This document shows positions 21,430 to 51,278 of a stretch of DNA of 54,020 nt, piece after piece; positions within the stretch are counted from its first letter, which is position 1; every line of letters starts with the position of its first letter. The position numbers were made by a program, and so were the translations under genes. The DNA is from Actinomycetes bacterium (lineage in GTDB: Bacteria; Actinomycetota; Acidimicrobiia; Acidimicrobiales; RAAP-2): NCBI GenBank assembly GCA_021844425.1, contig JAKBTL010000033.1, positions 1-54,020 on the forward strand. Reading direction: 5' to 3'. The notes under the pieces were generated by a model. It had not been told where the DNA came from and ran no database searches. It worked only from the letters and a program-made list of their open reading frames with translations.

Positions 21430-22376
21430 CGTGCCGCCATCTCGACCGGCGGCCTTCGAGCGGTCATCGATGTCGTGAGCTCGAGGAAGAGGCTCTCGAG
21501 GTCCTGGTTCACCTGGACGAGCTCGTAGACGACGATGCCGTTCGACGCGATGAGCGGTCCGAGCGTCTCGGGGGTCGCCCCGTCGACGAAGAGGACGTCC
21601 TCGCCCACCGGTCGGGGCGCGAGCCCGGCGTCGTGGGCGACCGCCGCCAGCCGGTCGCGCTCTGGGGTGCGCACGCGCATCGACGACCTGGACCGGCTCG
21701 TGAGCAGCGAGAGCGGACCCTGCACCCGCAGCCGGCCGCGCGACACGATCACCACGTCGTCGACCGTCTGGGCCATCTCGGCCAGGACGTGGGAGGACAC
21801 GAGCACCGTGCGCCCCTCGGCCGCGAGGTGGCGGAGGAGGTCGCGCAGCCAGGCGATCCCCTGGGGATCGAGGCCGTTCGACGGCTCGTCGAGGATGAGG
21901 ACGCCGGGATCGCCGAGGAGGGCGCCTGCGAGCTGCAGCCGCTGGCGCATGCCGAGCGAGTACCCACCTACCTTCCGCCTGGCGTCAGCGGTGAGCCCGA
22001 CGAGCTCGAGCATCGGGTCGATCCGCGAGATTTCGATCCCGGACTCGATCGCCAGCATCTCGAGGTGCGCGCGGGCGCGCCGCGACGGGTGGAAGTTCGT
22101 GGCCTCGAGCACTGCGCCGACCTGGCGGGCGGGCTCGGGGATGTCGCGGTAGCGACGACCGCCGATCGAGCAGGTCCCCGACGTCGCAGAGGCAAGGTCG
22201 AGCAGGATCCGCAGGGTCGTGGTCTTTCCCGCGCCGTTGGGCCCGAGGAACCCGGTGACGCGTCCGGGCTCGACGGTGAAGCTCAGGTCGTCGATCGCGG
22301 TGAGGGAGCCGAACCGCTTCGTGAGGCCTCGGACCTCGACGGTGGCGCCGCGAACGGGCCTGCTCACAGTCGGCAC
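21426..22376 (-). CDS. ABC transporter ATP-binding protein (ABC-2 exporter type)
   Basis: A 316-residue ATPase. Walker A is GFLGPNGAGKTTT (about residues 43-55), the signature is YSLGMRQRLQLAGALLG, Walker B is VLILDEPSNGLDP, and the H-loop is SSHVLAEM. A C-terminal extension of about 90 residues follows the nucleotide-binding domain, as in daunorubicin/bacitracin-type exporters. Start is GTG 22376; a second in-frame GTG three codons later is also possible. The upstream broken ogt gene, if its frame is restored, would end only 9 bp before this start, so this pair could be read through from the hopanoid operon. A link to hopanoid export is speculative. Confidence 0.92.
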   Translation of the reverse strand: MPTVSRPVRGATVEVRGLTKRFGSLTAIDDLSFTVEPGRVTGFLGPNGAGKTTTLRILLDLASATSGTCSIGGRRYRDIPEPARQVGAVLEATNFHPSRRARAHLEMLAIESGIEISRIDPMLELVGLTADARRKVGGYSLGMRQRLQLAGALLGDPGVLILDEPSNGLDPQGIAWLRDLLRHLAAEGRTVLVSSHVLAEMAQTVDDVVIVSRGRLRVQGPLSLLTSRSRSSMRVRTPERDRLAAVAHDAGLAPRPVGEDVLFVDGATPETLGPLIASNGIVVYELVQVNQDLESLFLELTTSMTARRPPVEMAAR

Positions 22377-22385
22377 GGATTGACG

Positions 22386-22831
22386 TTACCCCGAAGGATG
22401 TCCGAGATCGGGCCGCGGTGTCGTGCTCGTCCGCCGAGACCCCGGCGCGGTGGTGACGACCGATCGCGCCGCGCCTTCGAACGCCATAAGGGGCCACTTG
22501 GTGTCCGCTCCGCCCGCGTAGCCCCCGGCCCCCCGTTCGTAGCGACCATCCGGTGGCACGCGATGGCGACCGGGAGCGGGTTGGCGCCGCTTGCCTGCCC
22601 GTCTGCCCGGGACGCGTCCGGCCGGCCCACGCGGCGGGCGGGCTCTCCGTAGGTGATCGTCACGCCGTAGGGGATGTCGGCGAGCGCCCTCCTCACCTCG
22701 AGATGGAAGGCGGTCCCGCGCGGCGCGCCCGGGAGGGAGAACGCGCGAGGTCGTCGTGCGGCCCGGCTAGCCCCGGCCGGCAGCGCCCGAGCGCAACGCG
22801 CGGCGCGCAGCGTCGGCGATCCCGCAGGCAT
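22386..22831 (-). pseudogene. ogt: Truncated and frameshifted O6-methylguanine-DNA methyltransferase-like gene
   Basis: The minus strand encodes the C-terminal domain of an Ogt/MGMT-type protein: GTAFHLEVRRALADIPYG, then ANPLPVAIACHRMV with the active-site Cys in ACHR (PCHR is usual). After NGGPG the family sequence continues in another frame as GYAGGADTKWPLMAFEGA, so one base is missing or extra in the C/G-run at about 22522-22534. The unshifted frame runs on to 22364; the restored frame stops at 22386. The usual N-terminal domain of about 80 residues is mostly absent. The first candidate start (ATG 22831) overlaps the dxs end by 65 bp. A sequencing error in the homopolymer run could also explain the shift but not the short N-terminus. 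Confidence 0.7.
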
Positions 22832-24680
22832 CGAGGCCGTGGGCCGCCAGGATCTCGTCGGGTTTGCCGTGGGGGAGGTACGCGAGCGGCAGGCCGCAGG
22901 TGGCGACGGCGGGCTGCGGCGAAGAGGTGCCGAAGGCGCCGCTCCTGAGCGCGATCGCGACGGCCGAACCGACGCCTCCCTCGGCGATGCCGTCCTCGGC
23001 GGTCACGACCGCGGCGTGGGACCGTGCGTCGGCGAGCATCTCGGGATCGAGGGGGCTCGCGACCCGGACGTCCCACACCGTCGCCGCCACTCCCTCTCCG
23101 CCGAGCACCTGGGCAGCCTGCTCGCACGCCTCGAGGAGCTTGCCCACCCCGAGGAGGCACACCGAGCCGTCGCCGGGCGCGAGGCGACGCGCCCGGAGCC
23201 CCGAGCCGGTCTCGGACGCCCGGCGGGCGGGCGTCTTGGGCCACCTGATGGCGACGGGCCCGCCAGTGTGCTCCAAGGCGTCGTGGAGCATGACCTCGAC
23301 CTCCTCGTACGACGACGGGGCGAGCACGGTCATCCCCGGGACCTTGGTGAGCAGCGCCAGGTCGAAGATCCCGTGGTGGCTCGGGCCGTCGTCCCCGGTC
23401 ACCCCCGCGCGGTCGAGGCAGAGCACGACCGGGAGGCGGTGGAGACCGACGTCGTAGAGCACCTGGTCCCACGCGCGGTTGAGGAAGGTGGAGTACACGG
23501 CGACCACGGGTCGCAGCCCGCCCATCGCCATGCCTGCGGCGGCCGTCATGGCGTGCTGCTCGGCGATCCCCACGTCGACCAGCCTGTCGCCGTAGCGAAC
23601 GGCGAAGGGGATGAGGCCCGTCGGCCCGGTCATCGCCGCGGTGACTGCGACCAGCTCGGGCCGTGAGGCGGCCTCACGCACGAGCGCCGCACCGAACGCG
23701 TCCGTGTACGTCGGCACGCTGCCCTTGGGGACCCGGGGAAGACCGGTCGCGGCGTCGAAGGGGGAGACGTCGTGGAGGCGCTTCTCCGCGTCGCGCTCCG
23801 CGGGCGCGTAGTCGCGGCCCTTCACGGTGTGGACGTGCACCACGACGGGGCCACGGGCTGCGGCTGCGTCACCGAGCGCGGCTTCGAGCGCGTCGAGGTC
23901 GTGGCCGTCGACCGGGCCGATGTAGGAGAAGCCCAGTGCCTCGAAGAAGGCGGAGGGCGCCGGCGATCCCGGTGCCCGCGATCCCGCGCTGGTGCCGTCG
24001 GCTGCAGCCGCCGTCGTGAGCGGGGAGACCGTCGGTGCGTACGACCGGCCGTTGTCGTTCAGGACGACGACGACGCGGCGCCGCGTGACCCCGATGTTGT
24101 TCAGCCCCTCGTAGGCGAGCCCCCCGGTCAGCGCTCCGTCGCCGACCACTGCGACGACGTGGTGGCGCTCGCCCCGCGCGTCGCGGGCGCGCGCGAGCCC
24201 GTCCGCGTAGCCGAGCGCGGTCGACGCGTGGCTGTTCTCGACCAGGTCGTGCGCGGACTCGGCGCGGTTCGGGTAGCCCGAGAGACCGCCGGCCTTCCGG
24301 AGCCGCGCGAAGCCCTCCGCCCTCCCGGTCAACACCTTGTGGACGTATGCCTGGTGGCCCGTGTCCCAGACGATCGGGTCAGAGGGCGAGTCGAAGACCC
24401 GGTGGAGCGCGATCGAGAGCTCGACCGCTCCGAGGTTCGATCCAAGGTGTCCTCCCGTTCGTGACACCGAGGCGACGAGGAATCGCCGGATCTCCGTCGC
24501 GAGCCGGTCGAGCGCGGGCCGGTCCATCACGCGAAGCCGCGCCGGGGTGAGGTCCCGGAGCACGTCCGGGACGCGCACGCTGTCGGGGGCGTGCCCGTTG
24601 CCGTTCGCGGCCGGGGGCTCGTCTGCGGTCGCGACCGCCGACGTGTCGGGCTGCACCGAGATGTCGTGGAGCGTCGTCAC
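22767..24680 (-). CDS. dxs: 1-deoxy-D-xylulose-5-phosphate synthase
   Basis: A 637-residue thiamine-diphosphate enzyme that makes DXP from pyruvate and glyceraldehyde 3-phosphate, the entry step of the MEP isoprenoid pathway. Blocks seen: GGHLGSNLGAVELSIALH and WDTGHQAYVHKVLTGR in the N-terminal domain, the TPP motif GDGALTGGLAYEGLNN, then VDGHD, DVGIAEQHAMTAAAGMA and DRAGVTGDDGPSHHG in the pyrimidine-binding domain, and a C-terminal transketolase domain. The GTG at 24680 lies 5 bp after the hpnH stop and is the only wider gap in the hopanoid operon. About 30 low-complexity residues precede the conserved start. Placement points to precursor supply dedicated to hopanoids. Confidence 0.95.
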   Translation of the reverse strand: MTTLHDISVQPDTSAVATADEPPAANGNGHAPDSVRVPDVLRDLTPARLRVMDRPALDRLATEIRRFLVASVSRTGGHLGSNLGAVELSIALHRVFDSPSDPIVWDTGHQAYVHKVLTGRAEGFARLRKAGGLSGYPNRAESAHDLVENSHASTALGYADGLARARDARGERHHVVAVVGDGALTGGLAYEGLNNIGVTRRRVVVVLNDNGRSYAPTVSPLTTAAAADGTSAGSRAPGSPAPSAFFEALGFSYIGPVDGHDLDALEAALGDAAAARGPVVVHVHTVKGRDYAPAERDAEKRLHDVSPFDAATGLPRVPKGSVPTYTDAFGAALVREAASRPELVAVTAAMTGPTGLIPFAVRYGDRLVDVGIAEQHAMTAAAGMAMGGLRPVVAVYSTFLNRAWDQVLYDVGLHRLPVVLCLDRAGVTGDDGPSHHGIFDLALLTKVPGMTVLAPSSYEEVEVMLHDALEHTGGPVAIRWPKTPARRASETGSGLRARRLAPGDGSVCLLGVGKLLEACEQAAQVLGGEGVAATVWDVRVASPLDPEMLADARSHAAVVTAEDGIAEGGVGSAVAIALRSGAFGTSSPQPAVATCGLPLAYLPHGKPDEILAAHGLDACGIADAARRALRSGAAGRG

Positions 24681-24685
24681 GCCGG

Positions 24686-25690
24686 TCAGTGGGTGCTCAC
24701 GAGCGCGCGCAACGACTCGCGCAGGGACCCCATCGAGGCGATCACCGCCGACGGCTCGTAGCCGCAGTGCGCCATGCAATTGGCGCAGCGAGGATCTCTC
24801 CCTCTGCCGTACTTCGACCAGTCGGTCGTCTCGACGAGCTCCTTGTAGGACGAGACGTACCCGTCGGACATGAGGTAGCAGGGCCGCTGCCACCCCAGCA
24901 CCGAGTAGCTCGGGATTCCCCACGCGGTGCACTGGAAGTCCCGCTTTCCCTCGAGGAAGTCGAGGAAGAGCGGCGAGTGGTTCAGTCGCCACTTCCTACG
25001 CTTGCCGGCGAAAGCCTCCTTGAAGAGCTGCCTCGTCTGCTCCACCCCGAGGAAGTGCTCCTGGTCCGGAGCCTTCTCGTACGCGTAGGCGGGCGAGATC
25101 ATCATCGCGTCGACCTCGAGCTCGTCGTTCAAGAAGTCGAGGAGGTCGCGCACCGTCTTCGGGGAGTCGGTGTTGAAGAACGTCGAGTTGGTCGTCACCC
25201 GGAACCCCCGGCGCTTGGCCTCCCCGATCGCCTCGACCGCGGTGTCGAAGACCCCGTCTCGGTCGACTGCGGCATCGTGGCGCTCCCGCAGCCCGTCCAC
25301 GTGGACGACGAAGGAGAAGTACTCGCTCGGGGTGAACTTGTCGAGCCGGCGCTTGAGGAGCACGGCGTTCGTGCAGAGGTACACGTAGACCTTGCGCCGC
25401 ACGAGCGCCTGCACGATCTCGGAGATCTGGGGGTGCAAGAGCGGCTCGCCGCCAGCGATCGAGACCATGGGCGTGCCGCTCTCCTCGACCGCGTTCACCA
25501 CGTCGTCGACGGAGAGCCGCTTTCGCAGGATCTCGGTGGGATGCTGGATCTTCCCGCAGCCCGGGCAGGAGAGATTGCAGGAGAACAGCGGCTCGATCTC
25601 GACGATCAGCGGGTAGTACTTCCGGCCCTTCAGCCGCTGTCGGAGGAGATGGGAGCCGATCTTCAAGTTCTGCTTCAACGGAATAGGCAT
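24686..25690 (-). CDS. hpnH: Adenosyl-hopene transferase, radical SAM (HpnH)
   Basis: A 334-residue radical SAM enzyme. By family knowledge it joins the 5'-deoxyadenosyl group to hopene to give adenosylhopane, the first step of C35 side-chain building. The cluster ligands are in CNLSCPGC (Cys 38, 42, 45), followed by SIAGGEPLLHP. A C-terminal Cys group is present (CANCMAHCGYEPSA). The N-terminus MPIPLKQNLKIGSHLLRQ is typical of HpnH. Its ATG at 25690 overlaps the stop of the HpnG-IspH gene (TGATG). It sits directly after the gene whose HpnG part would act on its product. Confidence 0.95.
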   Translation of the reverse strand: MPIPLKQNLKIGSHLLRQRLKGRKYYPLIVEIEPLFSCNLSCPGCGKIQHPTEILRKRLSVDDVVNAVEESGTPMVSIAGGEPLLHPQISEIVQALVRRKVYVYLCTNAVLLKRRLDKFTPSEYFSFVVHVDGLRERHDAAVDRDGVFDTAVEAIGEAKRRGFRVTTNSTFFNTDSPKTVRDLLDFLNDELEVDAMMISPAYAYEKAPDQEHFLGVEQTRQLFKEAFAGKRRKWRLNHSPLFLDFLEGKRDFQCTAWGIPSYSVLGWQRPCYLMSDGYVSSYKELVETTDWSKYGRGRDPRCANCMAHCGYEPSAVIASMGSLRESLRALVSTH

Positions 25691-27249
25691 CAGCGCACCT
25701 GTGGGGGGAGGGCGAATCGGACGGATTCTGACGTAGTCCTGCGTTCGCCGACGTCGATCGGGCCGAGCGCGGAGAGCGCTCGGACCACGTCGGCGACGAG
25801 GGACTCGGGGGCGGACGCACCAGCGGTGATCCCGACGGTTGCCGCTCCGTCGAGCCACGAGAGGCGGAGCTGGCCGGCGTCCTCCACCAGCTCCGCACGG
25901 CAACCTTCCCGCCGGGCTACCTCGACCAGCCTCGCCGTGTTCGAGGAGTTGGCCGAGCCGACGACGAGCAGCAGATCGCACTCGCTGGCGATCGCCCGCA
26001 CCGCGTCCTGGCGGTTCTGCGTCGCGTAGCAGATGTCGTCGGCGCTCGGACCGACGAGCCCGGGGAACTTCGAGCGCAGCGCATCGACGATCTCGGCGGT
26101 TTCGTCGGTGGCGAGCGTCGTCTGCGTGAGGTACGCGACCGGCGCGTCGTCGCCCAGGTCGAGCTCGGCGACGTCGTCGGGCGTGGCCACGACGTGCATC
26201 CGGTCGGGCGCCTCCCCGTAGGTCCCGATCACCTCCTCGTGGTCGTCGTGTCCGACGAGGACGATGTCGTACCCGCGCGCAGCATAGCGACGCGCCTCGT
26301 GGTGCACCTTGGCGACCAGCGGGCACGTGGCGTCGATCACGGTGAAACCATGGCGTGCCGCGGCCTCGCTTCGGACGTCGGGGGAGACGCCGTGGGCGGC
26401 GAGCACCACCGTCGCGCCGTCTGGGACCTCGTCGAGCTCCTCGACGAAGACCGCACCCATCGCGGCGAGCCGCCCCACCACGTGGGTGTTGTGGACGATC
26501 TGGCGGCGGACGTAGACGGGCGCCCCGTGGCGCTCGAGCGCCCGCTCGACGATCTCGATCGCCCGCTCCACGCCCGCGCAGAACGACCGCGGCGACGCGA
26601 GCACGACACGGCGGCTGCGGCAGGCGCGTGCCCAGCGCTCGATCGGCCCTCTCACCCCGGCGAGCGACGTGGAGGCGCGTCGGGCGTCGACCGCCGACAT
26701 CGCCCCAGGGCCGGCCAGCTCCTCGACCGCCCGCACGACGGCAAGCGGGCGCTCGCGATCGGCCAGCGCGGCAGCCCACGCGGAGTCGTGGTCGATGACC
26801 AGCGCCCCGAGGCGCACGAGCTCGCTCCGGACGACACGGCGATGCGACGCAGGCTCCCGGGAGGCACCGGGGCTCTGGGAAGCCCCGAGGCTCTCGTCGC
26901 ACGCTTCGCTTGTCGAGACGACGGGGCCGACGGCGACCACGTGGCCGTCCCGGCGCAGCTCGTCGGCGAGCAGCGACGCCGAGGGGAGCCGGCGCACGAG
27001 CCGTGGCGCGGCCCCGGGGCCGGCCGTCCACAGCTCCGACGCGACCACGAGCTGGCCGGGCAGGAGCCCCGGGATGAGCCTCTCCGCCGTGCCCGTGACC
27101 GCGATCGCGGTGCCAGGCGCGAGCGTGGGCAGGAGCCGAGCGACGGCGTCGGCCACCGACGCAGCCCCGGTCCCCGTGACGATCGTGCGCGCGCCCATGG
27201 CGCGCGCCTCCAGGTGCGTCGGCGCGAGGACGACGACGTCGTCACTCAT
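25690..27249 (-). CDS. ispH: Fusion of HpnG-like nucleosidase/phosphorylase and IspH (HMBPP reductase)
   Basis: A 519-residue two-domain protein. Residues 1 to about 205 resemble the hopanoid-associated HpnG phosphorylase/nucleosidase group: VLAPTHLEARAMGA, TGTGAASVADAV, AIAVTGTAERLIPGLLPGQLVVASE, and LVIDHDSAWAA where the family has an MES(A) block. Residues from about 214 form a full IspH: FCAGVERA (Cys 224), AAHGVSP, DATCPLVAKVHHEA (Cys 309), DICYATQNRQ (Cys 407) and AGASAPESLV, so all three cluster cysteines are present. HpnG removes adenine from adenosylhopane; IspH makes IPP and DMAPP. No stop or start separates the two parts. ATG 27249 overlaps the shc end by 8 bp. Asp replaces Glu in the ribose-binding block, so HpnG activity is less certain than IspH activity. 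Confidence 0.88.
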   Translation of the reverse strand: MSDDVVVLAPTHLEARAMGARTIVTGTGAASVADAVARLLPTLAPGTAIAVTGTAERLIPGLLPGQLVVASELWTAGPGAAPRLVRRLPSASLLADELRRDGHVVAVGPVVSTSEACDESLGASQSPGASREPASHRRVVRSELVRLGALVIDHDSAWAAALADRERPLAVVRAVEELAGPGAMSAVDARRASTSLAGVRGPIERWARACRSRRVVLASPRSFCAGVERAIEIVERALERHGAPVYVRRQIVHNTHVVGRLAAMGAVFVEELDEVPDGATVVLAAHGVSPDVRSEAAARHGFTVIDATCPLVAKVHHEARRYAARGYDIVLVGHDDHEEVIGTYGEAPDRMHVVATPDDVAELDLGDDAPVAYLTQTTLATDETAEIVDALRSKFPGLVGPSADDICYATQNRQDAVRAIASECDLLLVVGSANSSNTARLVEVARREGCRAELVEDAGQLRLSWLDGAATVGITAGASAPESLVADVVRALSALGPIDVGERRTTSESVRFALPPQVR

Positions 27250-29251
27250 GGGGACCGCCTCCGTGCACGAACCGGCCGAGTGCGGTGACCGGGAAGACGA
27301 GCCGGTACAGGTGGTAGTTGATGTAGAAGTCGCCGGGGAACCCCGTCCCCGTGAACCACGGCTCGTCCCACGTCCCGTCGGGGCGCTGCGTGGCGCAGAG
27401 GAACTCGACGCCTCGGCGCGTCGACGGCCGCTCGGCCTCGCCTGCGGCCAGGAGGGCGAGCAGCGCCCACGCCGTCTGCGACGCGGTCGAGGCGCCTCTT
27501 CCTGCCCAGGAAGGGTCGTCGTAGGAGCGAAGGTCCTCACCCCATCCGCCGTCGTCGTTCTGATGGGCGCAGAGCCACTCGACCGCCCGACGCACTGCCC
27601 TATGCGCCGTCGGCACGCCGGCTGCCACGAGCGCGGGGACCGCCGCGCCCGTGCCGTACACGTAGTTCGCCCCCCAGCGTCCGAACCACGACCCGTCGGG
27701 CTCCTGGTGCTCGAGGAGCCAGGCGACCCCGCGCTCCAGCGCGGCACGGTCCGACCGGCGGCCTGCCACCTCGAGGGCGGCGAGCATCTCGACGACGTGT
27801 GCGGTGACGTCGGCGCTCGGCGGGTCGATGAGCTCGCCGAAGTCGCAGAACGGCAGCTTGCGGCAGAGCTCGCGCGTGTTGTCGACGTCGAACGCGGCCC
27901 AGCCGCCGTCGCTGCACTGCATGCCGAGGACCCAGGCGGTCGCGCGAGCGACGGCGCCGCGGTCGTCCTCGGAGCAGCGCAGCAGCGAGAGCACCACCTC
28001 CGCCGTGTCGTCGATGTCGGGGTAGTGGTCGTTGGCGAACTCGAAGGCCCATCCCCCGGGGGAGAGGCGCGGGCGGCGCACCTTCCAGTCTCCGTCGACG
28101 GTGACCTCTTCGTCGACCAGCCAGCGCGCCGCGGTGCGCAGCGCGGGATCGTCGGGGGAGAGCCCCGCGTCTGCCAGCGCGATGACCCCGAGCGCGGTGT
28201 CCCACACCGGGGACTGGCAGGCCTCGAGCCGGCGCCCGCGCTCGTCTCGAATGGTGAACCCCTCGAGGCCGTCGAGCGCGGCAGCGAGCACGGGGTGTGT
28301 GAGCGCGTAGCCCCGTAGGTGGAGCGCGATGATCGAGTACACCCAGGGCGGCTGGATCCCGCCCCATCCGCCGTCGGCCTCTTGCCGCTCGACGATCCAG
28401 CACTCCGCCTTGCGCAGCGCGGCCTCGCGCAGCGCGCGCACCGGCCGGCGCGCGTACCGCCGTGCGAGCGCGTCCGCCCGCTCGAGAGCCCCCTCCCGGG
28501 TGAAGAGCCGGTGGGACGGGAGCGGCGGGAGGCCCGTGCGGAGCTCTTCGACCTCGATGCCGAGGTCTCTGACCGGACGGTACGTGCTCACGATCGTGAG
28601 CGCGACGACGGTCTGGCGGGCCCAGCAGCCGAAGTCGTAGATGTTGAGCGGCAGCCACGACGGGAACAGCATCAGCTCGGGCGGCAGCACGGGGATGTCG
28701 TCCCACGGCCATTTCCCGAAGAGGGCGAGCCACATCTTGGTGAAGACGCGGGCCCGCTCGAGCCCGCCGTGCGCGCGGATGAAGGCGCGGGCGGAGGCCA
28801 TGTGCGGGGCGTCGGGAGGGTCGCCCGCGAGCCGCAGCGCGACGTAGGCCTCGATGGTCGTCGACAGGTCACCCGGGCCGCCCAGGTAGTTGGCCCAGGT
28901 CCCGTCCTCGCGTTGGTTGGTCCGGATCCAGCGCGCCGTGCCGGCAGTGTCCTCTTCGGTTCGGATGCCGAGGAATTGGCGAAGCAGGAGGTCCTCCGCG
29001 TCCATGGTGACGTTCGTCTCGAGCTCGCCTTTCCACCACCCGCTCTCGTGCTGGAGGGCGACCAGCGCATCGGTCGCCCTCTTCAGCGCGTGGGCCGCGG
29101 ACATCGTGGGCGCCGCATCGGTCCTGGACGTAGTCGGCGCGGCGGCCTCCACCAGCACCCCCTCTCGCCCGGGCGCGCTCGGGTCCGTCGTCGTCATCGG
29201 GTCCGTCGTCGTCATCGGGTCCGTCGTCGTCATCGGGTCCGTCGTCGTCAT
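27242..29251 (-). CDS. shc: Squalene-hopene cyclase
   Basis: A 669-residue class II triterpene cyclase that turns squalene into hopene. The protonating DXDD motif is DIDDTA (about residues 411-414). At least five QW repeats are visible, including QEADGGWGG, QCSDGGWAAF, QEPDGSWFG, QNDDGGWGE and QRPDGTWDEPWFTG. Length fits the family. The start region is unusual: four in-frame ATG codons lie 18 bp apart (29251, 29233, 29215, 29197) in a perfect repeat that encodes MTTTDP each time. The ATG at 29251 overlaps the upstream stop (ATGA) and is reported here. The enzyme is membrane-associated by family knowledge. Between the prenyl synthase and the HpnG-IspH gene in the hopanoid operon. Confidence 0.96.
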   Translation of the reverse strand: MTTTDPMTTTDPMTTTDPMTTTDPSAPGREGVLVEAAAPTTSRTDAAPTMSAAHALKRATDALVALQHESGWWKGELETNVTMDAEDLLLRQFLGIRTEEDTAGTARWIRTNQREDGTWANYLGGPGDLSTTIEAYVALRLAGDPPDAPHMASARAFIRAHGGLERARVFTKMWLALFGKWPWDDIPVLPPELMLFPSWLPLNIYDFGCWARQTVVALTIVSTYRPVRDLGIEVEELRTGLPPLPSHRLFTREGALERADALARRYARRPVRALREAALRKAECWIVERQEADGGWGGIQPPWVYSIIALHLRGYALTHPVLAAALDGLEGFTIRDERGRRLEACQSPVWDTALGVIALADAGLSPDDPALRTAARWLVDEEVTVDGDWKVRRPRLSPGGWAFEFANDHYPDIDDTAEVVLSLLRCSEDDRGAVARATAWVLGMQCSDGGWAAFDVDNTRELCRKLPFCDFGELIDPPSADVTAHVVEMLAALEVAGRRSDRAALERGVAWLLEHQEPDGSWFGRWGANYVYGTGAAVPALVAAGVPTAHRAVRRAVEWLCAHQNDDGGWGEDLRSYDDPSWAGRGASTASQTAWALLALLAAGEAERPSTRRGVEFLCATQRPDGTWDEPWFTGTGFPGDFYINYHLYRLVFPVTALGRFVHGGGPHE
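29180..29251 (-). repeat. 18-bp tandem repeat, 4 copies, carrying four shc start codons
   Basis: Four identical 18-bp units run from 29180 to 29251. On the minus strand each reads ATGACGACGACGGACCCG and encodes MTTTDP. The first ATG overlaps the stop of the polyprenyl synthase gene. Every copy is therefore a possible translation start in the same frame. Confidence 0.95.
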
Positions 29252-30264
29252 CGGTCCCTCGCCGTCACGTAACGTGCGATCTCCACCAGCTGCTCCTTGG
29301 ATCTCGTCTCGATGTCCACGAGGTCGAGCGCATCGAGCGCCGCCCGCAGGTGCTCGTCGGCGATCGCGGTCACCGCGTCGCGCACGCCCGCTTCCTCCAT
29401 GAGCGCGGTCGCCCGAGCGACGTCGCCAGGTCCGAGCGGGCGCGAGAGGATCGCCGACAGCTCGTCCGCCACGGCGCCGCCTCGCTCGAAGGCCACCGCG
29501 ACGGGGAGGGCCTTCTTGCGAGCCAGCAGGTCGGCGCCGACGGGCTTGCCGGTGACGGCGGGCTCTCCCCAGACCCCGAGCATGTCGTCGACGGCCTGGA
29601 ACGCGATCCCGAGGTGCTCGCCGTAGTCGCCCAGCGCGTCGGCCGTTGTCTCGTCCGCGCCCCCGAGCACCGCGCCGATGGCGCACGACGCCGCCAGGAG
29701 CGCGCCGGTCTTGCCACGTTCCATCTCGAGGCACTCGTCGACGGTGACCCGGCCACGCGACTCGAAGGCCATGTCCGCGGCCTGTCCAGCGATCATCTGC
29801 TGGTTGGCGTCGGCGAGCCGCCGAGCGGCCTCCACGCGTCGAGCGGTCGGGATGTCGAGCAGCACCTGCATCGCCAGCCCGGCAAGCGCGTCCCCGGCCA
29901 CGATCGCGATGCTCTCGCCGAATTTGGCCCACACCGTCGGGCGGTGCCGGCGTTCCCGGTCGCGGTCGATGATGTCGTCGTGGAGGAGCGAGTAGTTGTG
30001 CACGAGCTCGATCGCGACCGCGGCGGGCACGGCGCTGTCGTCGCAACCCCCCGCGGCGTGCGCGGCGAGGAGGACGAGCCCCGCACGGACGAACTTGGCG
30101 CCTCCTGCGAGGTGGTGGCGAACGGGCTCTCGGAGCGCGGGGTCGAGCCGGTCGACCGCTGCCGCCAGCGCTGGGGTGACCACCTCCGAGGCGCGGACCA
30201 GCGCGCGGGGCACCTGCACCGCGGAGGCCCTCGCGGGGGTCGGCGACGCGATGGGCGCGCTCAC
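29248..30264 (-). CDS. Polyprenyl (farnesyl/geranylgeranyl) diphosphate synthase
   Basis: A 338-residue trans-prenyltransferase. The first aspartate-rich motif is DDIID (residues 96-100) and the second is DDMLG (226-230), a form common in actinobacterial short-chain synthases. GGAKFVRAGL stands where GGKRxRP is usual. GTG start at 30264 overlaps the hpnE stop (GTGA), and its own stop overlaps the shc start. In this operon it most likely makes farnesyl diphosphate for squalene synthesis; chain length cannot be settled from sequence alone. Confidence 0.9.
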   Translation of the reverse strand: MSAPIASPTPARASAVQVPRALVRASEVVTPALAAAVDRLDPALREPVRHHLAGGAKFVRAGLVLLAAHAAGGCDDSAVPAAVAIELVHNYSLLHDDIIDRDRERRHRPTVWAKFGESIAIVAGDALAGLAMQVLLDIPTARRVEAARRLADANQQMIAGQAADMAFESRGRVTVDECLEMERGKTGALLAASCAIGAVLGGADETTADALGDYGEHLGIAFQAVDDMLGVWGEPAVTGKPVGADLLARKKALPVAVAFERGGAVADELSAILSRPLGPGDVARATALMEEAGVRDAVTAIADEHLRAALDALDLVDIETRSKEQLVEIARYVTARDR

Positions 30265-31655
30265 GCGGGCGCCCCCTCCAGCCGTTGCGGGATCCCTTCC
30301 GACCGGATCGACTCGAGAGCCGCGCCGGCTGCGGCCGTCCCCGAGCGCACCGCGCCTTCCATGGTCGCCGGCCAGCCGGTCGCGCACCATGCCCCCGCGA
30401 CGAAGACACCAGGGCACCGGGTGGCAGGGGGGGGCCGGAGCGCCGCGGTGCCGGGCACGGCGCGGAACGTTGCTGCGTGCTCGCGGGTGACCACGGCGTC
30501 GACGAGCGCGGCGTCCTTGGCCTTCGAGAAGAGCTCGCCGAGGGCCGCGTGGAACGTGCGGATCAGCTCGTCGGGACGGGACCCCGCGTAGGCGCTCGCG
30601 TCGGAGAGCGACACGACGAGGCACTGGCCGCCGCGCGACGCGGGGATGCCCGCGGCGTCCGTGTGGTCGAAGACGTACTGGACGGGCGAGCCGACGGCGG
30701 CGGCCAGCGGCAAGTCGGTGACCAAGCGGTCGAAGACGAGATGGACGTTGACGATGGGCGACCGGCCGAGACCCGAGAGGTCGCCGAGAGCCCCTGGGGG
30801 GAGGACCGCCGGCGCGGCCTCGTGGGAGAGCGCGACGACGACGGCGTCCGCGTCGAGCCGCCGGCCGCCGGCGAGGACGGCGAGGCGGGGTGCGCCGCCC
30901 GCGCGCACCTCCACGACCTCTGCGGGAGAGCCGAGCACGAGCTCGACGCCGGCCGCCTCGAGCGCCCGCTTGCCGTGCTCCCCGTGGAGCTCGCCGAGCG
31001 GCACCGCCGACCACCCGATGTCCGCGCCGTCGACGGTGTCGAGCAGTCCGGTGCGGAAGACCTTTGCCGCGAGCGCGAGGGATGCCTCCGCCGAGCCGAC
31101 GTTCACGGTTGGCAGCACCACGAGGTCCCAGAGCCGCTCGATCGCGTGACTCGACTGGCCCCGTCGAGCCAGCCAGTCCCCGAACGCCACGTCGTCGAGC
31201 GCCGGGTCGTCGAGTGTGAGCGCGCGCAGGTCGAGCACCGGCCGGAGCAGCCGCGCGCGCTCGGCGAGCGACAGATGCCCGTAGCCGAGGAGCGACCGGC
31301 CGAGGTGGAAGGGCGAGGGGAGCGGCGCCGGGGTCCGCGCGATCCGGGCGCGCCGGCCGGACGGGGCGAGCACGGGGATGTCGAGCGCCGCCTGGAGGCG
31401 GACCTTGTCCGCCGCGCCGATGCGCTCGAGAAAGGCTCGGTAGGCCGTGCAGCAGCGGAGGAAGACGTGCTGGCCGTTGTCGAAGGAGAGCCCGTTGCGC
31501 CGGAAGGACCAGGTGAGACCGCCGAGGCGCCGCCGCCTCTCCACGAGCGCGACCTCTGCGCCGGCGTCCGCGGCGGCGAGTGCGGCCGACATGCCGGCGA
31601 GCCCCCCGCCGACGACGACGACGCGCCCCGCCACCCTCGGTGTGGTCGTGCTCAC
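30261..31655 (-). CDS. hpnE: Hydroxysqualene dehydroxylase (HpnE)
   Basis: A 464-residue FAD-dependent amine oxidase/phytoene desaturase-like protein. The FAD motif VVVGGGLAGMSAALAAADAG is near the N-terminus, followed by ALVERRRRLGG; the C-terminal FAD block is PGVFVAGAWCATGWPATMEGAV. In the HpnCDE route it reduces hydroxysqualene to squalene. GTG start at 31655 overlaps the hpnD stop (GTGA). Position between hpnD and the prenyl synthase supports HpnE and not a carotenoid desaturase. Confidence 0.93.
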   Translation of the reverse strand: MSTTTPRVAGRVVVVGGGLAGMSAALAAADAGAEVALVERRRRLGGLTWSFRRNGLSFDNGQHVFLRCCTAYRAFLERIGAADKVRLQAALDIPVLAPSGRRARIARTPAPLPSPFHLGRSLLGYGHLSLAERARLLRPVLDLRALTLDDPALDDVAFGDWLARRGQSSHAIERLWDLVVLPTVNVGSAEASLALAAKVFRTGLLDTVDGADIGWSAVPLGELHGEHGKRALEAAGVELVLGSPAEVVEVRAGGAPRLAVLAGGRRLDADAVVVALSHEAAPAVLPPGALGDLSGLGRSPIVNVHLVFDRLVTDLPLAAAVGSPVQYVFDHTDAAGIPASRGGQCLVVSLSDASAYAGSRPDELIRTFHAALGELFSKAKDAALVDAVVTREHAATFRAVPGTAALRPPPATRCPGVFVAGAWCATGWPATMEGAVRSGTAAAGAALESIRSEGIPQRLEGAPA

Positions 31656-32539
31656 GCGGCTCTCCGCTCGCGGCCGGCGGAGGTGGCGCCGCGGTGCGAG
31701 ACGAGGCAGGACGCAGCGACCCACAGCTTCTCCGAGGCCGGGACCGAGACGCGGCCGCGGGTGACGGCCATCGGGTCTCGGGCGATCCGGCGCAGGAGCC
31801 GCAGGTAGATGCCCGCCATCGCGCCCACGCACGCCTGGCTGCGCCGATCGAGCATCGGCAGGAGCAGGAGGCCGCGGGCGAACCACTCCTCGGCGCGCCC
31901 GCACTCGAACGCGACGAGCCGACCGAGCGCACCGTCGTCGGAGAGGTCCGGAGGGCAGTCGTTGGCGGCGGCGTCGGCGGACGGGAGGTAGACGCGTCCG
32001 CGCCGCCCGTCCTCCTTCACGTCGCGCAGGATGTTCGTGAGCTGGAGCGCGACGCCGAGGTCGTCCGCGAGCCCGCTCGCCCCTGGCTCGCCGGCCGCGC
32101 GGAAGATCGCGAGTGACAACCTGCCGATCGAGCCCGCGACCCGCCGGCAGTAGACGACGAGATCGTCGATGGTCGCGTACGTCGTGCCTACGACGTCCAT
32201 CTCGCATCCGTCGACGAGGTCGCCGAACGCATCCATCGGAAGGCCGTAGCGGTTCTTCGCGTCGTCGATCGCCAGCAGGACCGGGTCCTGCGTCGGTTCT
32301 CCGACCGTCGCGAGCTGCTTGCGGACCTGTGCGAGGTCCTCGAGCTTGCGTTCGGGCGGCGCCTCACCATCGCCGATGTCGTCGATGCGCCGAGCGAGCG
32401 CGTAGACCGCGGAGAGCGCCCGGCGCTCGGGCGGGCGGAGCAGTCGGATCCCGTACGCGAAGTTCTTGGCCTCGCGCCGGGTGATCGCCTCGCACTCCGA
32501 GTAGGCGCGGTCGAGGGCCGGAGCTGCGGGGGCGGTCAT
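31652..32539 (-). CDS. hpnD: Presqualene diphosphate synthase (HpnD)
   Basis: A 295-residue squalene/phytoene synthase-family protein. The two Mg-binding aspartate motifs are DDIGD (residues 53-57) and DVKED (173-177), with GRVYLP following the second. The opening RREAKNFAYGIRLLRPPERRAL is HpnD-like. It condenses two farnesyl diphosphates to presqualene diphosphate. ATG at 32539 overlaps the hpnC stop (ATGA). Confidence 0.93.
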   Translation of the reverse strand: MTAPAAPALDRAYSECEAITRREAKNFAYGIRLLRPPERRALSAVYALARRIDDIGDGEAPPERKLEDLAQVRKQLATVGEPTQDPVLLAIDDAKNRYGLPMDAFGDLVDGCEMDVVGTTYATIDDLVVYCRRVAGSIGRLSLAIFRAAGEPGASGLADDLGVALQLTNILRDVKEDGRRGRVYLPSADAAANDCPPDLSDDGALGRLVAFECGRAEEWFARGLLLLPMLDRRSQACVGAMAGIYLRLLRRIARDPMAVTRGRVSVPASEKLWVAASCLVSHRGATSAGRERRAA

Positions 32540-33471
32540 GGGAAGGCTCCTGGACCGGCGGCTCGGGCTCCGGGCCGGGCTCCGGGCCGGAGCACCGGGA
32601 TGTGGGCCCTCTGCGAGGCGAGCAGGACGAGCGCGAGGCGGGCGGCGAAGCGCCCGGGGCGTGGGCGGCATCGGTGCGCGAGCACGTCGAAGCTGGCCGC
32701 GTCGATGTCGTCGAGGGCCGCCATGCCGCCTGCCGCGAAGGCGGCGACGGCGACGCGGGGCCGAAGGGGGAGGCTGGCGGCAAGGGGCGCTCCGGAGAAG
32801 AGGAGACGTCGGGCCCGTGCCGCCTCCAGCGCGACCACACGTCGGAGCGCGGGGCCCGCCTGCGGGGCCGCAAGGTCTGACTCTTCGCATCCCTCCGCCA
32901 GCAGGTCCACGAGGGGGAGGTAGATGCGGTCCTGGCGAAGATCCTCTGCGACGTCCTGGAGGTGCTCGACGACCTGGAGCCCGGTGCACACGTCGTCCGA
33001 GAGGGCCACCCGATCGGGGGTGGCGGCCCCGAAGATCTCGAGCACGAGCCTGCCGACAGGGTTGGCGGAAAGCCGGCAGTAGCCGACCAGGTCGTCGAAG
33101 GTCTCGTAGCGTCGGACGACCTGGTCCTGGCGGTTCGCCTCGATGAGGTCGAAGAAGGGCTGGAGCGGCAGCCGCCGCGCGGCGATCGTCGCGCCGACCC
33201 GTCGCATGACAGGGTGGGACGCCTCGCCGCCCGCGGCCCGGAGGAGCTCGTGCTCGAGCCACTCGAGCTGGGCGAGCCGGTCACCGCCGGCCGTGTCCCC
33301 GACGTCGTCGGTGAGCCGCGCGAAGCCGTAGATCGCCATGAGATCCGCACGCAACGCGCCGGGAAGAAGCCGCGAGGCGACGGGAAAATTCTCGCTCGTC
33401 GCTTGTGCGTAGACCGTGCGCGCGGCCGGGAGGTCGGGGTGTGGTGGCGATCCTGTCGTCGTAAAGATCAC
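32536..33471 (-). CDS. hpnC: Hydroxysqualene synthase (HpnC)
   Basis: A 311-residue squalene/phytoene synthase-family protein. Motifs are DDVGD (residues 55-59) and DVAED (173-177). The ENFPVASRLLP block near the N-terminus is typical of HpnC and separates it from HpnD. It turns presqualene diphosphate into hydroxysqualene. It is the first gene of the hopanoid operon. The GTG start at 33471 is preceded by AAGGAG (33483-33478), and the 9-bp tandem repeat begins only eight bases further upstream. A Pro/Arg/Gly-rich tail of about 20 residues ends the protein. Confidence 0.93.
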   Translation of the reverse strand: MIFTTTGSPPHPDLPAARTVYAQATSENFPVASRLLPGALRADLMAIYGFARLTDDVGDTAGGDRLAQLEWLEHELLRAAGGEASHPVMRRVGATIAARRLPLQPFFDLIEANRQDQVVRRYETFDDLVGYCRLSANPVGRLVLEIFGAATPDRVALSDDVCTGLQVVEHLQDVAEDLRQDRIYLPLVDLLAEGCEESDLAAPQAGPALRRVVALEAARARRLLFSGAPLAASLPLRPRVAVAAFAAGGMAALDDIDAASFDVLAHRCRPRPGRFAARLALVLLASQRAHIPVLRPGARPGARAAGPGAFP

Positions 33472-44685: not shown

Positions 44686-45017
44686 GCGCAGCATTCTGAG
44701 GACTCATCGGGTCCAAGAAGGTGCAGGACTGCTCGGCCGGCGAATTGCCGGCTCTACGTTCCCCTTCGCATGGCGTAGGGCCTCGGGCCCGACGCGCCAG
44801 CGCGACGTAAGCCCCCATGGGGTGCCATGCGAGACCACGGGGCATCATGGAGCTGATGCCGACGGACAGGGGGCATCTGGGCAGGGATGGCTCGAGTCGG
44901 CCTACACAGGCCCAAGCGCCGCTCGAGGGGCGTTCCAGGTGGTTTCCAGTGCGGTCGTCACAACCGGGTGGTATGCCAGACCAAGTTACCCAGCGTCAGG
45001 ACCGACAAGGAGGGGGC
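44686..45017. other. Gap between integrase and the cas operon, presumed cas promoter region
   Basis: No gene is supported in these 332 bases. The cas7 frame is open upstream to 44817, but those residues are unlike the family. A perfect inverted repeat GCCGGC-GAATT-GCCGGC lies at 44736-44752 and a CCCCATGGGG palindrome near 44814. Neither is followed by a T-run. The cas operon promoter should be here but I could not identify its elements. Confidence 0.5.
45007..45013 (+). promoter_or_regulatory. Shine-Dalgarno site that sets the csb1 start
   Basis: AAGGAGG lies four bases before ATG 45018, the strongest such site in the window. It fixes the csb1 start despite in-frame upstream ATGs at 44817, 44847, 44856 and 44973. 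Confidence 0.8.
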
Positions 45018-46199
45018 ATGGCTGTGAGATTGACGGCGGAGCGGCTGGTCTCGGCAGCTCAGGACGACAGCGCCGATGCAGGCATCACTATCCGAGCCGA
45101 ACTCGAACCGCTCGGGGGTGACGGGACGCCGGTGAAGCCGGCGGCCTATGGAGGCGGCCAGTTCCAGCACGGACGCCGGTGGGTGGGCAGCGGAGAAGAT
45201 CGCCACCCGGTGGACATCTTGGTGATCGACAACGAGCCCAGCCAGGCGAACCGACTTGAGGCGGCGCTCCAGGACAAGCGCGATGTGCTCGGCCTCCCGG
45301 ACATCGTGCTGGACCTCTCCTCGGCAGGAACGCTGCCACCTCACTTGCCCCGAGAGATCTCGATGTTCCAGTTCCCGCACCGCAATGCGGATGCGTACTT
45401 ACGTGACTCGATGGTGGACGGGACGCCCTTTGCAACGTCTGAGGTTGGCGAGGCGATCTTCGAGGCGACTGCTGCGAGCGCGGATGCCCTGCTTGCGTGG
45501 TGCCCTCAGGCACCGCTGTTCGGCTTCTGGCAGTCGCACCTAGGCAAGAAGCGGAGCCAGGCGAAGAAGGCGCGGTCGTGGGCGAGCGAGATCATCGGAC
45601 TTGAACCGGCAGCCGACGACGTTCGACGCCTCGGTACGAAGGGTGACCCGATCAACCTGAATGCAGAAGAGCAAGTCCTCGTCAATGAGGACGATATGTC
45701 GGTTTGGGAGTTCGGTGAGAAGCCGGAGAAGGGCGAAAAGCGTGACAAGCTGGCGAAAGTGGGTCACGGTCAAGTGCCGTTCCCCGAGGACCGACAAGCG
45801 CTCTCGGGAGTTTCCTTCCGCCAGATTCTTCAGCAGGCGACCGTGTCGTTCGCATCGCTTCGGACGGTGAGGACGAGCAGCGGTGCGCCGGAGGCACGTG
45901 CGGTGCTCGCGGCGCTCGGCCTGGTGGCACACGTTGCCGCGTTCGCTCGAGCTTTCACCTTGCGCTCCGGTGCGGATCTGCGCCCCAAGACGGTGTCGTG
46001 GCGGTGGCTCGGGGCACGAGGTGACGAGGACCTCGAAGTACCCGACTTCGAAGCCATGGCAGCGATCTTCAGCGAATGCGTCGCGCAGGCCGAAGTTGCA
46101 GGGGTCCCGGTTGGTTCCCAGTGGAAGGAGCACCGCCTCACCGTTTCGCCCTCGCCGTCCCTTCTCCAAGCCATCAAGAAGTCCTGGCCTGCGACTTAG
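45018..46199 (+). CDS. csb1: Type I-G CRISPR Cas7 (Csb1/GSU0053 family)
   Basis: A 393-residue RAMP protein of the Csb1 family, the backbone subunit that coats the crRNA in type I-G (formerly I-U) Cascade. Family-like blocks are LTAERLVSAAQDDSADAGI, IRAELEPLGGDGTPVKPAAYG with the following aromatic-rich stretch, LVIDNEPSQANRLEAAL, and LFGFWQSHLGKKRSQ. ATG 45018 is set by AAGGAGG. It is the first gene of a seven-gene cas operon and ends 5 bp before csb2. Being first, with the strongest ribosome site, suits the several copies per complex that Cas7 needs. Confidence 0.88.
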   Translation: MAVRLTAERLVSAAQDDSADAGITIRAELEPLGGDGTPVKPAAYGGGQFQHGRRWVGSGEDRHPVDILVIDNEPSQANRLEAALQDKRDVLGLPDIVLDLSSAGTLPPHLPREISMFQFPHRNADAYLRDSMVDGTPFATSEVGEAIFEATAASADALLAWCPQAPLFGFWQSHLGKKRSQAKKARSWASEIIGLEPAADDVRRLGTKGDPINLNAEEQVLVNEDDMSVWEFGEKPEKGEKRDKLAKVGHGQVPFPEDRQALSGVSFRQILQQATVSFASLRTVRTSSGAPEARAVLAALGLVAHVAAFARAFTLRSGADLRPKTVSWRWLGARGDEDLEVPDFEAMAAIFSECVAQAEVAGVPVGSQWKEHRLTVSPSPSLLQAIKKSWPAT

Positions 46200-46204
46200 A
46201 TCCA

Positions 46205-47665
46205 ATGCTCACCATCTCTGTGGAACTGCTGCACGGGACCATCCGGGCCGGGTCTCCGGACGACACCGTGCTGGCTGGGCGCGACCCCACCGGCGAATGG
46301 CCACCGAGCCCTGCGCGTCTCTTCAGTGCCTTCGTTGCAGCGGACGGAACGAGGTCGCGCTGCATGGTCACGTCCGGGGATGAGCTCGAGTGGTTCGAGG
46401 CTCTCGAGCCACCGATCATCGTCGCTTCGGGCCCTGAAGACGTCCTCAGCTCACCGTTGAACAGCCGCTACGTGGTGATGAACAAGGGTGCGGATGGCGC
46501 AGTTCAGGAGTACCCGGCGCGAATTGCGAAAGAGATCCGCCCCGGGGTTCGTCAGGCACCCAAGGATCCGTCGATAACCTATGTATGGCCCAACGCCGTC
46601 CCGTCCGCTGACCACCTCGGCGCGCTCTCACGCCGGGCGGGACGCATCGGATACCTCGGCTGTGCCGACTCGCCGGTCCGAGTCACGGTGACGGAGGCAC
46701 CGAGCCTGCCGGATGCATTCGTGTGGCGTCCGGACCACTCTGGTTCTCACACCCTGCCCGTTCCGTTCCCGGGCTTCCTCGACGCGCTGGATCGCGCCTA
46801 CGACGCGTGGTGTGCGGGTCAGCCGGTCCGCCGCTCGTGGGTGCTGACGCGTCGGGCTCGTTACCGCTCGCCGAGTTCGCTCGACAGTCCTGTCGTGGCG
46901 TCGACGCGCCAGATGATCTGGTTGCGTTTCGAACGAGCGATATCTGGGCGTCACCTCCTCACCATGACCGAGACCCTTAGGGCGGCGGTGCTCGATCACG
47001 TACAGCGTCTCGCTCCCGAGGTGGCGCTTCCGGCGGTTCTCCATGGCCACCGCCCGCCGGGAGAACGGGGCAGTCAGGCCGACTTTCTCGGCCTACTCGA
47101 CGTCGGTCACGCCCGCGCGACGGGACGGCTCATGGGTGCGGCCATCTCGCTCCCGGCTGATGCCGACCCGGCATTGGTCCAACTGGTCAGGACGGCGGTG
47201 GCGCGTCTTGCGAGCGCTGAGCTCGTTGGGCCTGTCGGTCGTCCCGAGGAGACTGCCAGCTTCCATCTGAAGGTTGGCCTCTATGGCGGCGAGCGCAGAC
47301 CCTGGGCAGCCGTGCCTGAGCGTTGGATGGGACCCTCGAAGGCCTGGCTGAGCGCGACGCCTGTTGTGCACGAGCGGTGGAGCAAACGCGGCCCACAACT
47401 CGAAGAAGTCGCGCGCTGGTGTATCCACGCCGGCATTCCCGAAGCGGCGAAACTGGTAAAGGTGCGCCTTTCGCGTCATCCGATCGTGGCAGGCGGTATG
47501 GACCTCCCAGCCACAAGGGTGTTCCGCGCGAAGCAGGATCGTCGCCCGTACTCTCACATGGCCTTGTTGTTCGACCGCCTCGTCGAAGGTCCCATCGTGG
47601 TCGGGCGCAGTCGTCAGTACGGGTTCGGCCTTTTCGTTCCCGCGCCGAGCGAGCCCATGTCATGA
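46205..47665 (+). CDS. csb2: Type I-G CRISPR Cas5/Cas6-type protein (Csb2/GSU0054 family)
   Basis: A 486-residue protein of the Csb2 family, described as a Cas5-Cas6 fusion that caps and processes crRNA. The N-terminus MLTISVELLHGTIRAG with GEWPPSPARLFSAFVAA matches the WPPSPxRLL(R)AL signature. The C-terminus GPIVVGRSRQYGFGLFVP resembles the Gly-rich loop of Cas6-type RAMPs. ATG 46205 is chosen; upstream in-frame residues lie inside csb1. Its stop overlaps the cas3 start (ATGA). No separate cas6 exists in the window, which agrees with this protein doing crRNA processing. Confidence 0.88.
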   Translation: MLTISVELLHGTIRAGSPDDTVLAGRDPTGEWPPSPARLFSAFVAADGTRSRCMVTSGDELEWFEALEPPIIVASGPEDVLSSPLNSRYVVMNKGADGAVQEYPARIAKEIRPGVRQAPKDPSITYVWPNAVPSADHLGALSRRAGRIGYLGCADSPVRVTVTEAPSLPDAFVWRPDHSGSHTLPVPFPGFLDALDRAYDAWCAGQPVRRSWVLTRRARYRSPSSLDSPVVASTRQMIWLRFERAISGRHLLTMTETLRAAVLDHVQRLAPEVALPAVLHGHRPPGERGSQADFLGLLDVGHARATGRLMGAAISLPADADPALVQLVRTAVARLASAELVGPVGRPEETASFHLKVGLYGGERRPWAAVPERWMGPSKAWLSATPVVHERWSKRGPQLEEVARWCIHAGIPEAAKLVKVRLSRHPIVAGGMDLPATRVFRAKQDRRPYSHMALLFDRLVEGPIVVGRSRQYGFGLFVPAPSEPMS

Positions 47666-50424: not shown

Positions 50425-51278
50425 CCACTCGGTGCGACGCTCCGGGGCTGCCCGCAGACTGGCTCAACGGGTGGCTCGCGGCCATCGGTGCGACCGTCCT
50501 CGTGCCGGGCCTAAAGCTGCGATGGACCGACGACGTGGTGCCGTACGCCGTGTTCGAGGGCGACGTTCTTGACGTCGTGGATGCAGTTGCAAGCAAGTTG
50601 CCGACCGAATCGGAGCTCGCCAAGTCGGTGATCGCGCGACAGCGCGAGGAGTGCGCCGATTTCCCTCGCAACGTGTCCCTCGCTGCCTACCGAGAGCGTG
50701 CCAACCTCGAGCGCGAGGCACACAGCGTCCACCTCGCCGCGTCGGTGAGCGACCTGCGAGCAGATGCCGACCTCGAGAACCTCGACCACGGCGCGTTCGA
50801 TGTGGCGGCACCACGTGGCGAGACCTTGTGGTCGAGGGCAGTCAAGTGCGCGAGCTTGATCCCGAGCGATCAACGCGCACAGTGGGTGCGCGAGAGCTTC
50901 GGAGGGTTGGGACGGCGCGTGCAGGGGAACGGGGTGGGCTTCGACGCTCGGCGGCTTCCGGGGTCCGCGGACTCGACCGAGGTGTTCGCAGATCCGGTGG
51001 TGGAGCTCTTGGTGTTCGCCTCCCTGGCGCTCTTTCCGACGAGAGGAGATGGTCGCAAACGCGTTCGTCAGCGAGGATGGACGGACCGATCGACACGACC
51101 TGGTGCGTTTACGTGGATGGCGTGGCGTACCGCGCTCGACCGCTGGGCGATCGACGCGTTGCTGGACGCACCAGACGTGGATGAGCAGAATGTGGTAGCC
51201 CGCTACCGAGTCGTCCCGTACCGGTCTCGTGGGGATTCGGATACCACCAGGGCTTACTTCGCCGAGCGTGTGCTGTGA
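50421..51278 (+). CDS. Probable type I-G Cas8-like subunit (Csb3/GSU0052-type)
   Basis: A 285-residue protein with no strong motif that I can name. Position in a complete type I-G operon between cas3 and cas4 makes it the only candidate for the large/Cas8 subunit (the small form related to GSU0052/Csb3; Csx17-type large subunits are much longer). Visible features are an opening PADWLNGWLAAIGATVLVPG and a conserved-looking VVELLVFASLALFPTRG. Such Csb3 proteins often begin with a WLxALG-type segment, which fits. GTG 50421 overlaps the cas3 stop and its stop overlaps the cas4 GTG. The family call rests mainly on context. Confidence 0.7.
   Translation: MTTRCDAPGLPADWLNGWLAAIGATVLVPGLKLRWTDDVVPYAVFEGDVLDVVDAVASKLPTESELAKSVIARQREECADFPRNVSLAAYRERANLEREAHSVHLAASVSDLRADADLENLDHGAFDVAAPRGETLWSRAVKCASLIPSDQRAQWVRESFGGLGRRVQGNGVGFDARRLPGSADSTEVFADPVVELLVFASLALFPTRGDGRKRVRQRGWTDRSTRPGAFTWMAWRTALDRWAIDALLDAPDVDEQNVVARYRVVPYRSRGDSDTTRAYFAERVL

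Follow-up and report, generated by a model that had tools for sequence, protein, structure and literature searches.

The window analysed here, a stretch of 54,020 nucleotides from an acidimicrobial genome (contig JAKBTL010000033.1 of assembly GCA_021844425.1), carries within a hopanoid operon a gene whose product joins a domain derived from the hopanoid enzyme HpnG to IspH. The explanation that we consider probable is an old hpnG-ispH fusion of which the HpnG half, in the clade of the window, is a poor nucleosidase at best, the protein being kept for its IspH. The fusion is not peculiar to the window genome: hopanoid operons of several actinobacterial lineages carry it. The architecture itself is known and, as far as our searches show, the additions made here are the link to the hopanoid operon and the decayed variant.

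According to this explanation, hpnG and an ispH gene of the operon would have been joined in frame within actinobacterial hopanoid operons. Most of the aligned carriers appear catalytically complete in both halves as judged by their residues, and one protein probably performs both steps, reducing HMBPP to IPP/DMAPP and removing adenine from adenosylhopane. In the genus of the window and one sister genus, the Met-Glu pair predicted to bind ribose has been lost, often together with the Asp predicted to protonate the purine, and the HpnG half would survive as a folded domain encoded at the 5' end of a gene whose product is preserved for IspH. Ribosylhopane would be supplied by another enzyme, possibly the free phosphorylase P0002 described below.

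The fused gene and its operon

On the minus strand, 25690-27249 is a single frame of 519 codons followed by a stop, without any stop between the halves, so that the HpnG-like domain and IspH reported by the first-pass annotation do lie in one uninterrupted protein (Table 1). The squalene-hopene cyclase gene runs 8 bases into the fused gene (CATGAGTGA).

Table 1. Coordinates of the fused gene, its parts and the neighbouring hopanoid genes in the window
Feature	Position	Strand	Basis or remark
Fused gene, 519 aa (HpnG-derived domain and IspH)	25690..27249, stop codon included	minus	frame reading
HpnG-derived domain of nucleoside-phosphorylase fold, residues 1-208, active-site signature lost	26626..27249	minus	profiles, alignment, tree, model
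IDHDSA block, residues 152-157	26779..26796	minus	D-[M/T]-E-S in 31/31 fusions outside the clade
Residue 177, Glu	26719..26721	minus	Asp in 31/31 intact fusions, aligned with Asp of RAISD in MTA nucleosidases
Variable-length loop, residues 112-140	26830..26916	minus	29 aa here; 10 aa in 31/31 intact fusions; 3-46 in the clade
IspH domain, residues 214-519	25693..26610	minus	retains the cluster cysteines and the active-site residues checked
hpnH (adenosylhopane synthase)	24740..25690	minus	NCBIfam; one-base overlap of its start with the stop of the fused gene (TGATG)
Squalene-hopene cyclase (shc), start unsure	27242..29197	minus	NCBIfam
Polyprenyl diphosphate synthase, start unsure	29248..30264	minus	NCBIfam, no cut-off reached
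hpnE, start unsure	30261..31637	minus	NCBIfam
hpnD	31652..32539	minus	NCBIfam, 270.1 bits, slightly below the cut-off of 278.6
hpnC	32536..33471	minus	NCBIfam
dxs, start unsure	22767..24578	minus	NCBIfam; downstream of hpnH

The same surroundings recur in relatives. Of 30 context loci, 22 combine a fusion whose N-half is in view with an hpnH match, L129 is cut inside the gene, and the remaining seven hold an unfused IspH, part of an IspH or no IspH match. In all but one of the 22, hpnH follows directly downstream, the exception being L033, where it lies about 4 kb off; the nearest mapped upstream gene is shc in 21 and hpnE in one (L031). With the window included, all 23 mapped fusion loci lie among hopanoid genes, 22 of them with hpnH directly downstream. 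In Streptomyces filipinensis the slot of the fusion, between shc and hpnH, is taken by a free hpnG of 213 aa, whose end, by eye, corresponds to the point where IspH starts in the fusions. HpnH scored above its cut-off in 30 of the 34 genomes searched, that of the window among them.

Distribution of the fusion

A sample of 396 genomes of the phylum contained at least five with a full-length fusion match, counting the window genome; this number is a lower bound, at most three candidates having been scored per genome. In the family of the window, 32 of 172 genomes yield a match beginning within the N-half, at or before model position 31; of these, 20 are intact and 12 belong to the decayed type. 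The gene of G033 is truncated where its contig ends, and G010 contains just a fragment of the N-half. A protein scan across contigs revealed a recognisable N-half in 6 of 80 loci among the matches listed, adding, again among these matches, Thermoleophilaceae, an actinomycetote, Pseudofrankia, Amycolatopsis, Flexivirga and Pseudonocardia. A Frankia tisae fusion (L191) was also found, and the tree places it among the other fusions. Cultured carriers of an intact fusion include Amycolatopsis saalfeldensis and Flexivirga meconopsidis Q11; proteomics has detected the HpnH of the latter (PMC10745605).

Of 55 loci, 12 were duplicates, and the 43 distinct fusions that remained, each from a different genome, were aligned; L018 (cut), L191 and the G010 fragment stand outside this alignment. 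They comprise 31 intact fusions from outside the clade of the window and the 12 of the clade, namely 11 from the genus of the window and one from genus g8. The first-pass annotation had reckoned with a sequencing correction that would part the two halves, and the recovery of 43 distinct fusions in as many genomes, including Amycolatopsis, Pseudonocardia, Flexivirga and Pseudofrankia, led us to reject an assembly artefact. Moreover, a phosphorylase-IspH fusion has already been published in Frankia, according to the portion of that report available (Rao et al. 2015, PMC4746011). We thus give virtually no credence to two genes joined by an assembly or sequencing error.

In Streptomonospora sp. 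PA3, an IspH (L036, 6001-6960 plus the upstream frame) bears a short, odd N-terminal extension which by eye resembles a remnant of an HpnG domain; profile support for it is absent (1.6 bits).

Origin and fold of the HpnG-derived half

Residues 1-208 descend from actinobacterial HpnG and fold as a nucleoside phosphorylase, as indicated by the profiles of relatives, the tree, the operon slot and the predicted structure. Taken alone, the window N-half gave no Pfam match at a limit of E 10, no match in a PDB search and, in NCBIfam, a single match to PRK07077 (phosphorylase) at E 0.027; the HpnG model TIGR03468 gave none at E 10, its curated cut-off being 187.1. The similarity claimed by the first-pass annotation was therefore not recovered from this copy by Pfam, and was found in its sisters: the three N-halves tested (L014, L016, L031) all match PF01048 above gathering, and score 78, 56 and 95 bits with TIGR03468. 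Scores below the cut-off are typical of this branch of HpnG, since free Streptomyces HpnG scores just 72-79 bits in three genomes.

When a profile of 22 intact N-halves was searched against the PDB, MTA/SAH nucleosidases were found (best 2.7e-14), VDMES aligning with VEME and RAVVD with RAISD of MTA nucleosidases. An AlphaFold2 model of the window N-half, built on the 43 fusions, has a pLDDT of 89.6 and a pTM of 0.88, and Foldseek assigns it to the nucleoside-phosphorylase fold (best E 1.1e-10, probability 1.00): the best 50 PDB matches listed are uridine phosphorylases, MTA/SAH nucleosidases, PNPs and futalosine hydrolase, with a TM over the query of 0.61-0.72. The model of the full-length fusion reaches a pLDDT of 89.1, residues 117-131 lying below 50.

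In a tree of 57 rows, which include 19 of the 31 intact fusions, L191 and 8 of the 12 decayed ones, the N-halves of the fusions and the free HpnG of actinobacteria form one group (97/80), and the eight decayed rows form a single clade (100/100). G352, of the same phylum as the window, pairs with the Thermoleophilaceae fusion (100/86). The tree does not establish that the fusion arose just once, a free Saccharopolyspora HpnG being placed among the fusions (83/85).

Contrasting fates of the two halves

The IspH half looks fully working, its activity being predicted from conserved residues. The first-pass annotation had described it as a complete IspH with three cluster cysteines, and this description stands: residues 215-494 match TIGR00216 at 321.5 bits, above the cut-off of 187.85, the Pfam LYTB match is at 1.8e-94, and the alignment of residues 214-519 with solved structures of IspH covers almost the full length (best 8.6e-96). 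C224, C309 and C407 are invariant in all 43 distinct fusions. Twelve cluster and active-site positions (Cys, His/Glu/Thr/Ser/Asn), named by what we take to be E. coli numbering, are all present in the window copy; 11 are invariant in the 43 fusions and the Ser226 position is kept in 42. The window genome may or may not also encode a separate IspH: the protein search gave one IspH match and the profile search counted two, of which the first is among the matches listed.

The HpnG half has followed another course. All 31 fusions outside the clade keep D-[M/T]-E-S, the following catalytic Asp and a 10-residue loop, and the complete active-site signature is kept in 31/31 intact fusions versus 0/12 in the clade. 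The Asp that the first-pass annotation had noticed in IDHDSA is indeed found where all 31 intact fusions have Glu: the window copy lacks the ribose-binding Glu and has Asp155, and in the clade this position is Asp in nine members and His, Ala and Gln in one each, Glu occurring in none. Met154 is lost in all 12. The catalytic Asp177 is kept in four, is Gly or a gap in three, and is Glu177 in the window copy. Glu14, which we take to match a catalytic Glu of MTA nucleosidase, is kept in six of the 12, including the window copy. The loop is exactly 10 aa long in 31/31 intact fusions versus 1/12 in the clade, in which it measures 3, 7, 10, 12, 16, 29, 29, 29, 34, 36, 46 and 46 residues; in two members it is extended by in-frame 18-base tandem repeats (L006 2654-2795, 7.9 copies; L008 1807-1906, 5.6 copies). 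The N-domain of L012 is 156 residues long, compared with 178-203 in intact fusions. The clade also has conserved residues of its own: Gln66 (12/12), Trp74 (11/12), Thr54 and each of Gly180, Pro181, Ala183 and Met184 (10/12).

Simple pairwise estimates of omega, made without a tree model, with residues 112-146 left out and dS limits of 0.03-1.2, gave medians over 55 pairs of the genus of the window of 0.49 for the N-half versus 0.17 for the IspH half. Five intact groups gave N-half medians of 0.31 (21 pairs), 0.13 (3 of 15 pairs, the others being beyond the dS limits), and 0.40, 0.16 and 0.29 (one pair each). The ratio of N-half to C-half dN is 2.01-6.60 in the genus and 0.82-2.74 in the intact groups, ranges that overlap. 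N-half omega is 0.63-0.82 among L005, L006 and L008, and 0.19-0.26 in the closest trio of the window (L001-L003). Constraint on the N-half is thus relaxed over the genus as a whole, yet it persists in this trio, where the N-half is not simply drifting, since its omega resembles that of close intact pairs (group g7, 0.15-0.21).

The suspicion of the first-pass annotation that the first domain may have changed activity would be borne out by the loss of Met154 and Glu155 throughout the clade, by Glu for Asp177 in this copy and by the decay of loop length. We conclude that the clade probably combines a working IspH with a compromised HpnG half, which may be inactive, retain weak activity or serve another purpose, and we infer a loss of adenosylhopane cleavage there. 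The proposal that the fusion joins two ends of one pathway, the making of IPP/DMAPP and the removal of adenine, would accordingly fit the intact relatives better and the window copy less well.

The adenosylhopane step

HpnG is regarded as a putative phosphorylase removing adenine from adenosylhopane, which is the sole side-chain hopanoid detected in Azospirillum brasilense and a major one in some bacteria, according to the part of the source available (PMC12583986). The decayed clade keeps hpnH and, in 12 of the 13 genomes of the genus (not G008), an HpnO candidate: which enzyme removes the adenine? This aminotransferase shares 56-60% of its residues with the HpnO candidate from the Streptomyces cluster, and its assignment rests on that homology; an HpnO model is absent from the best 25 NCBIfam matches listed for either protein. 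The candidate also occurs in G019 and in all 20 family genomes with an intact fusion, and outside the family 10 of the 12 fusion genomes searched have no HpnO-candidate match above 216 bits. The idea that the genus stops at adenosylhopane was rejected as stated: the absence of HpnO that it predicted failed. The presence of the candidate suggests that ribosylhopane may still be made in the genus, in which case another enzyme would cleave adenosylhopane, or the altered site would still work.

P0002, a free phosphorylase of 237 aa with intact VDMET and RAISD (L113 3786-4499, G000 contig C129), has HpnG as its best NCBIfam match, at 88 bits and under the cut-off. It is present in 13/13 genomes of the genus and in G019 versus 1/20 family genomes with an intact fusion, the one exception (G473) being 9% contaminated; this correlation with decay counts one clade, that is, one event or two rather than 13. 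Eleven further family genomes carry homologues at 32-43% identity. HpnH was found in G023 and G473 among them, and at E 1e-30 not in the other nine (G013, G016, G027, G034, G035, G472, G478, G496 and G516), several of these assemblies being incomplete. In the tree P0002 forms its own clade apart from HpnG, and its neighbours, by eye, look unrelated to hopanoids. By its distribution P0002 is a candidate for having taken over the HpnG step, with homologues occurring also where HpnH was not found.

In G014, an HpnO-like aminotransferase adjoins a sugar-epimerase-like gene, HpnA-like by eye (L269 3656-6300), on a contig different from that of the main hopanoid operon.

Alternative readings

The replacements at 155 (Glu by Asp) and 177 (Asp by Glu) are conservative, and this is a counterpoint to the explanation that we prefer. 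Full bifunctionality could persist if Asp155 and Glu177 replaced Glu and Asp with both halves remaining active, and it would agree with the low N-half omega in the closest trio (just 0.19-0.26), with the HpnO candidate in 12 of 13 genomes and with the retention of hpnH beside the fusion. We consider it rather unlikely: the Asp/Glu combination occurs in none of the 31 intact fusions, and other members of the clade have gone beyond exchanges of this kind, one member each having His, Ala or Gln as residue 155, three of the 12 Gly or a gap at position 177, and 11 of the 12 a loop of altered length, be it lengthened, shortened or expanded by repeats.

The HpnG half could also have taken on a new role as a non-catalytic partner, for example by sensing a ligand or by acting as a scaffold, either to IspH or to the SHC-HpnH step. 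The conserved residues proper to the clade (Gln66 12/12, Trp74 11/12, others 10/12), the high-confidence predicted fold and the constraint persisting in the closest trio are in its favour, but an omega of 0.63-0.82 among L005, L006 and L008 and the 156-residue domain of L012, compared with 178-203 residues in intact fusions, speak against it, and we find it improbable. A related proposal, which seems to us quite improbable, would make the half a folded pseudo-nucleosidase, perhaps binding adenosylhopane and regulating or localising IspH through the fusion; if true, isoprenoid supply would respond to events at the distal end of hopanoid synthesis.

Relation to known systems

Rao et al. (2015, Chem Sci, PMC4746011), in the portion available, describe a UDP/PNP phosphorylase-IspH fusion in Frankia sp. 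QA3, EUN1f and EAN1pec, class it among those confined to one species or to strains of that species, and consider such cases possibly random. As in the window protein, the phosphorylase domain precedes IspH; here, in contrast, hopanoid operons of several lineages are shown to contain the fusion, and the phosphorylase half of the window copy is decayed. Words starting with 'hopan' number 0 in their text by count. In the open PMC literature, as far as its texts were available, no paper was found linking this phosphorylase-IspH fusion to hopanoids, nor any combining the reductase name, nucleoside phosphorylase and hopanoid.

With HpnG (TIGR03468), the window N-half shares the slot between shc and hpnH, the fold and membership of the actinobacterial HpnG clade; it differs in being undetected by the model, in lacking the ribose-binding Glu and the catalytic Asp, and in being fused to IspH. 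The window protein shares with IspH/LytB (TIGR00216) the checked residues and a nearly full-length match, and adds an N-terminal domain of 208 residues. IspH-RPS1, as far as the available text describes it, is likewise IspH fused to another protein, the RPS1 partner being dispensable for IspH activity; the partner is a different one and, in the window protein, precedes IspH. The fused HpnCD of subdivision 2 Acidobacteria is also a fusion of hopanoid genes, other than those of the window, according to the accessible part of its description (PMC5462960).

A fusion once thought possibly random thus becomes a hopanoid-operon protein of several actinobacterial lineages, with a testable function. 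Hopanoids serve as biomarkers. Since adenosylhopane is a major one in some bacteria, the answer to which enzyme removes its adenine bears on who makes which. A survey that counted hpnG by its place in the operon would register the gene even where its active-site signature is lost.

Other features of the window

A methylated-DNA-cysteine methyltransferase gene adjoins the hopanoid operon (22364-22831, minus strand; TIGR00589, 61.8 bits). Further along, at 44817-52905, the window holds a type I-G (I-U, Dpsyc) CRISPR-Cas set with Cas7g, Cas56g, Cas3g, Cas4 and Cas1, in approximate frames, and a weak Cas8g match (28 bits).
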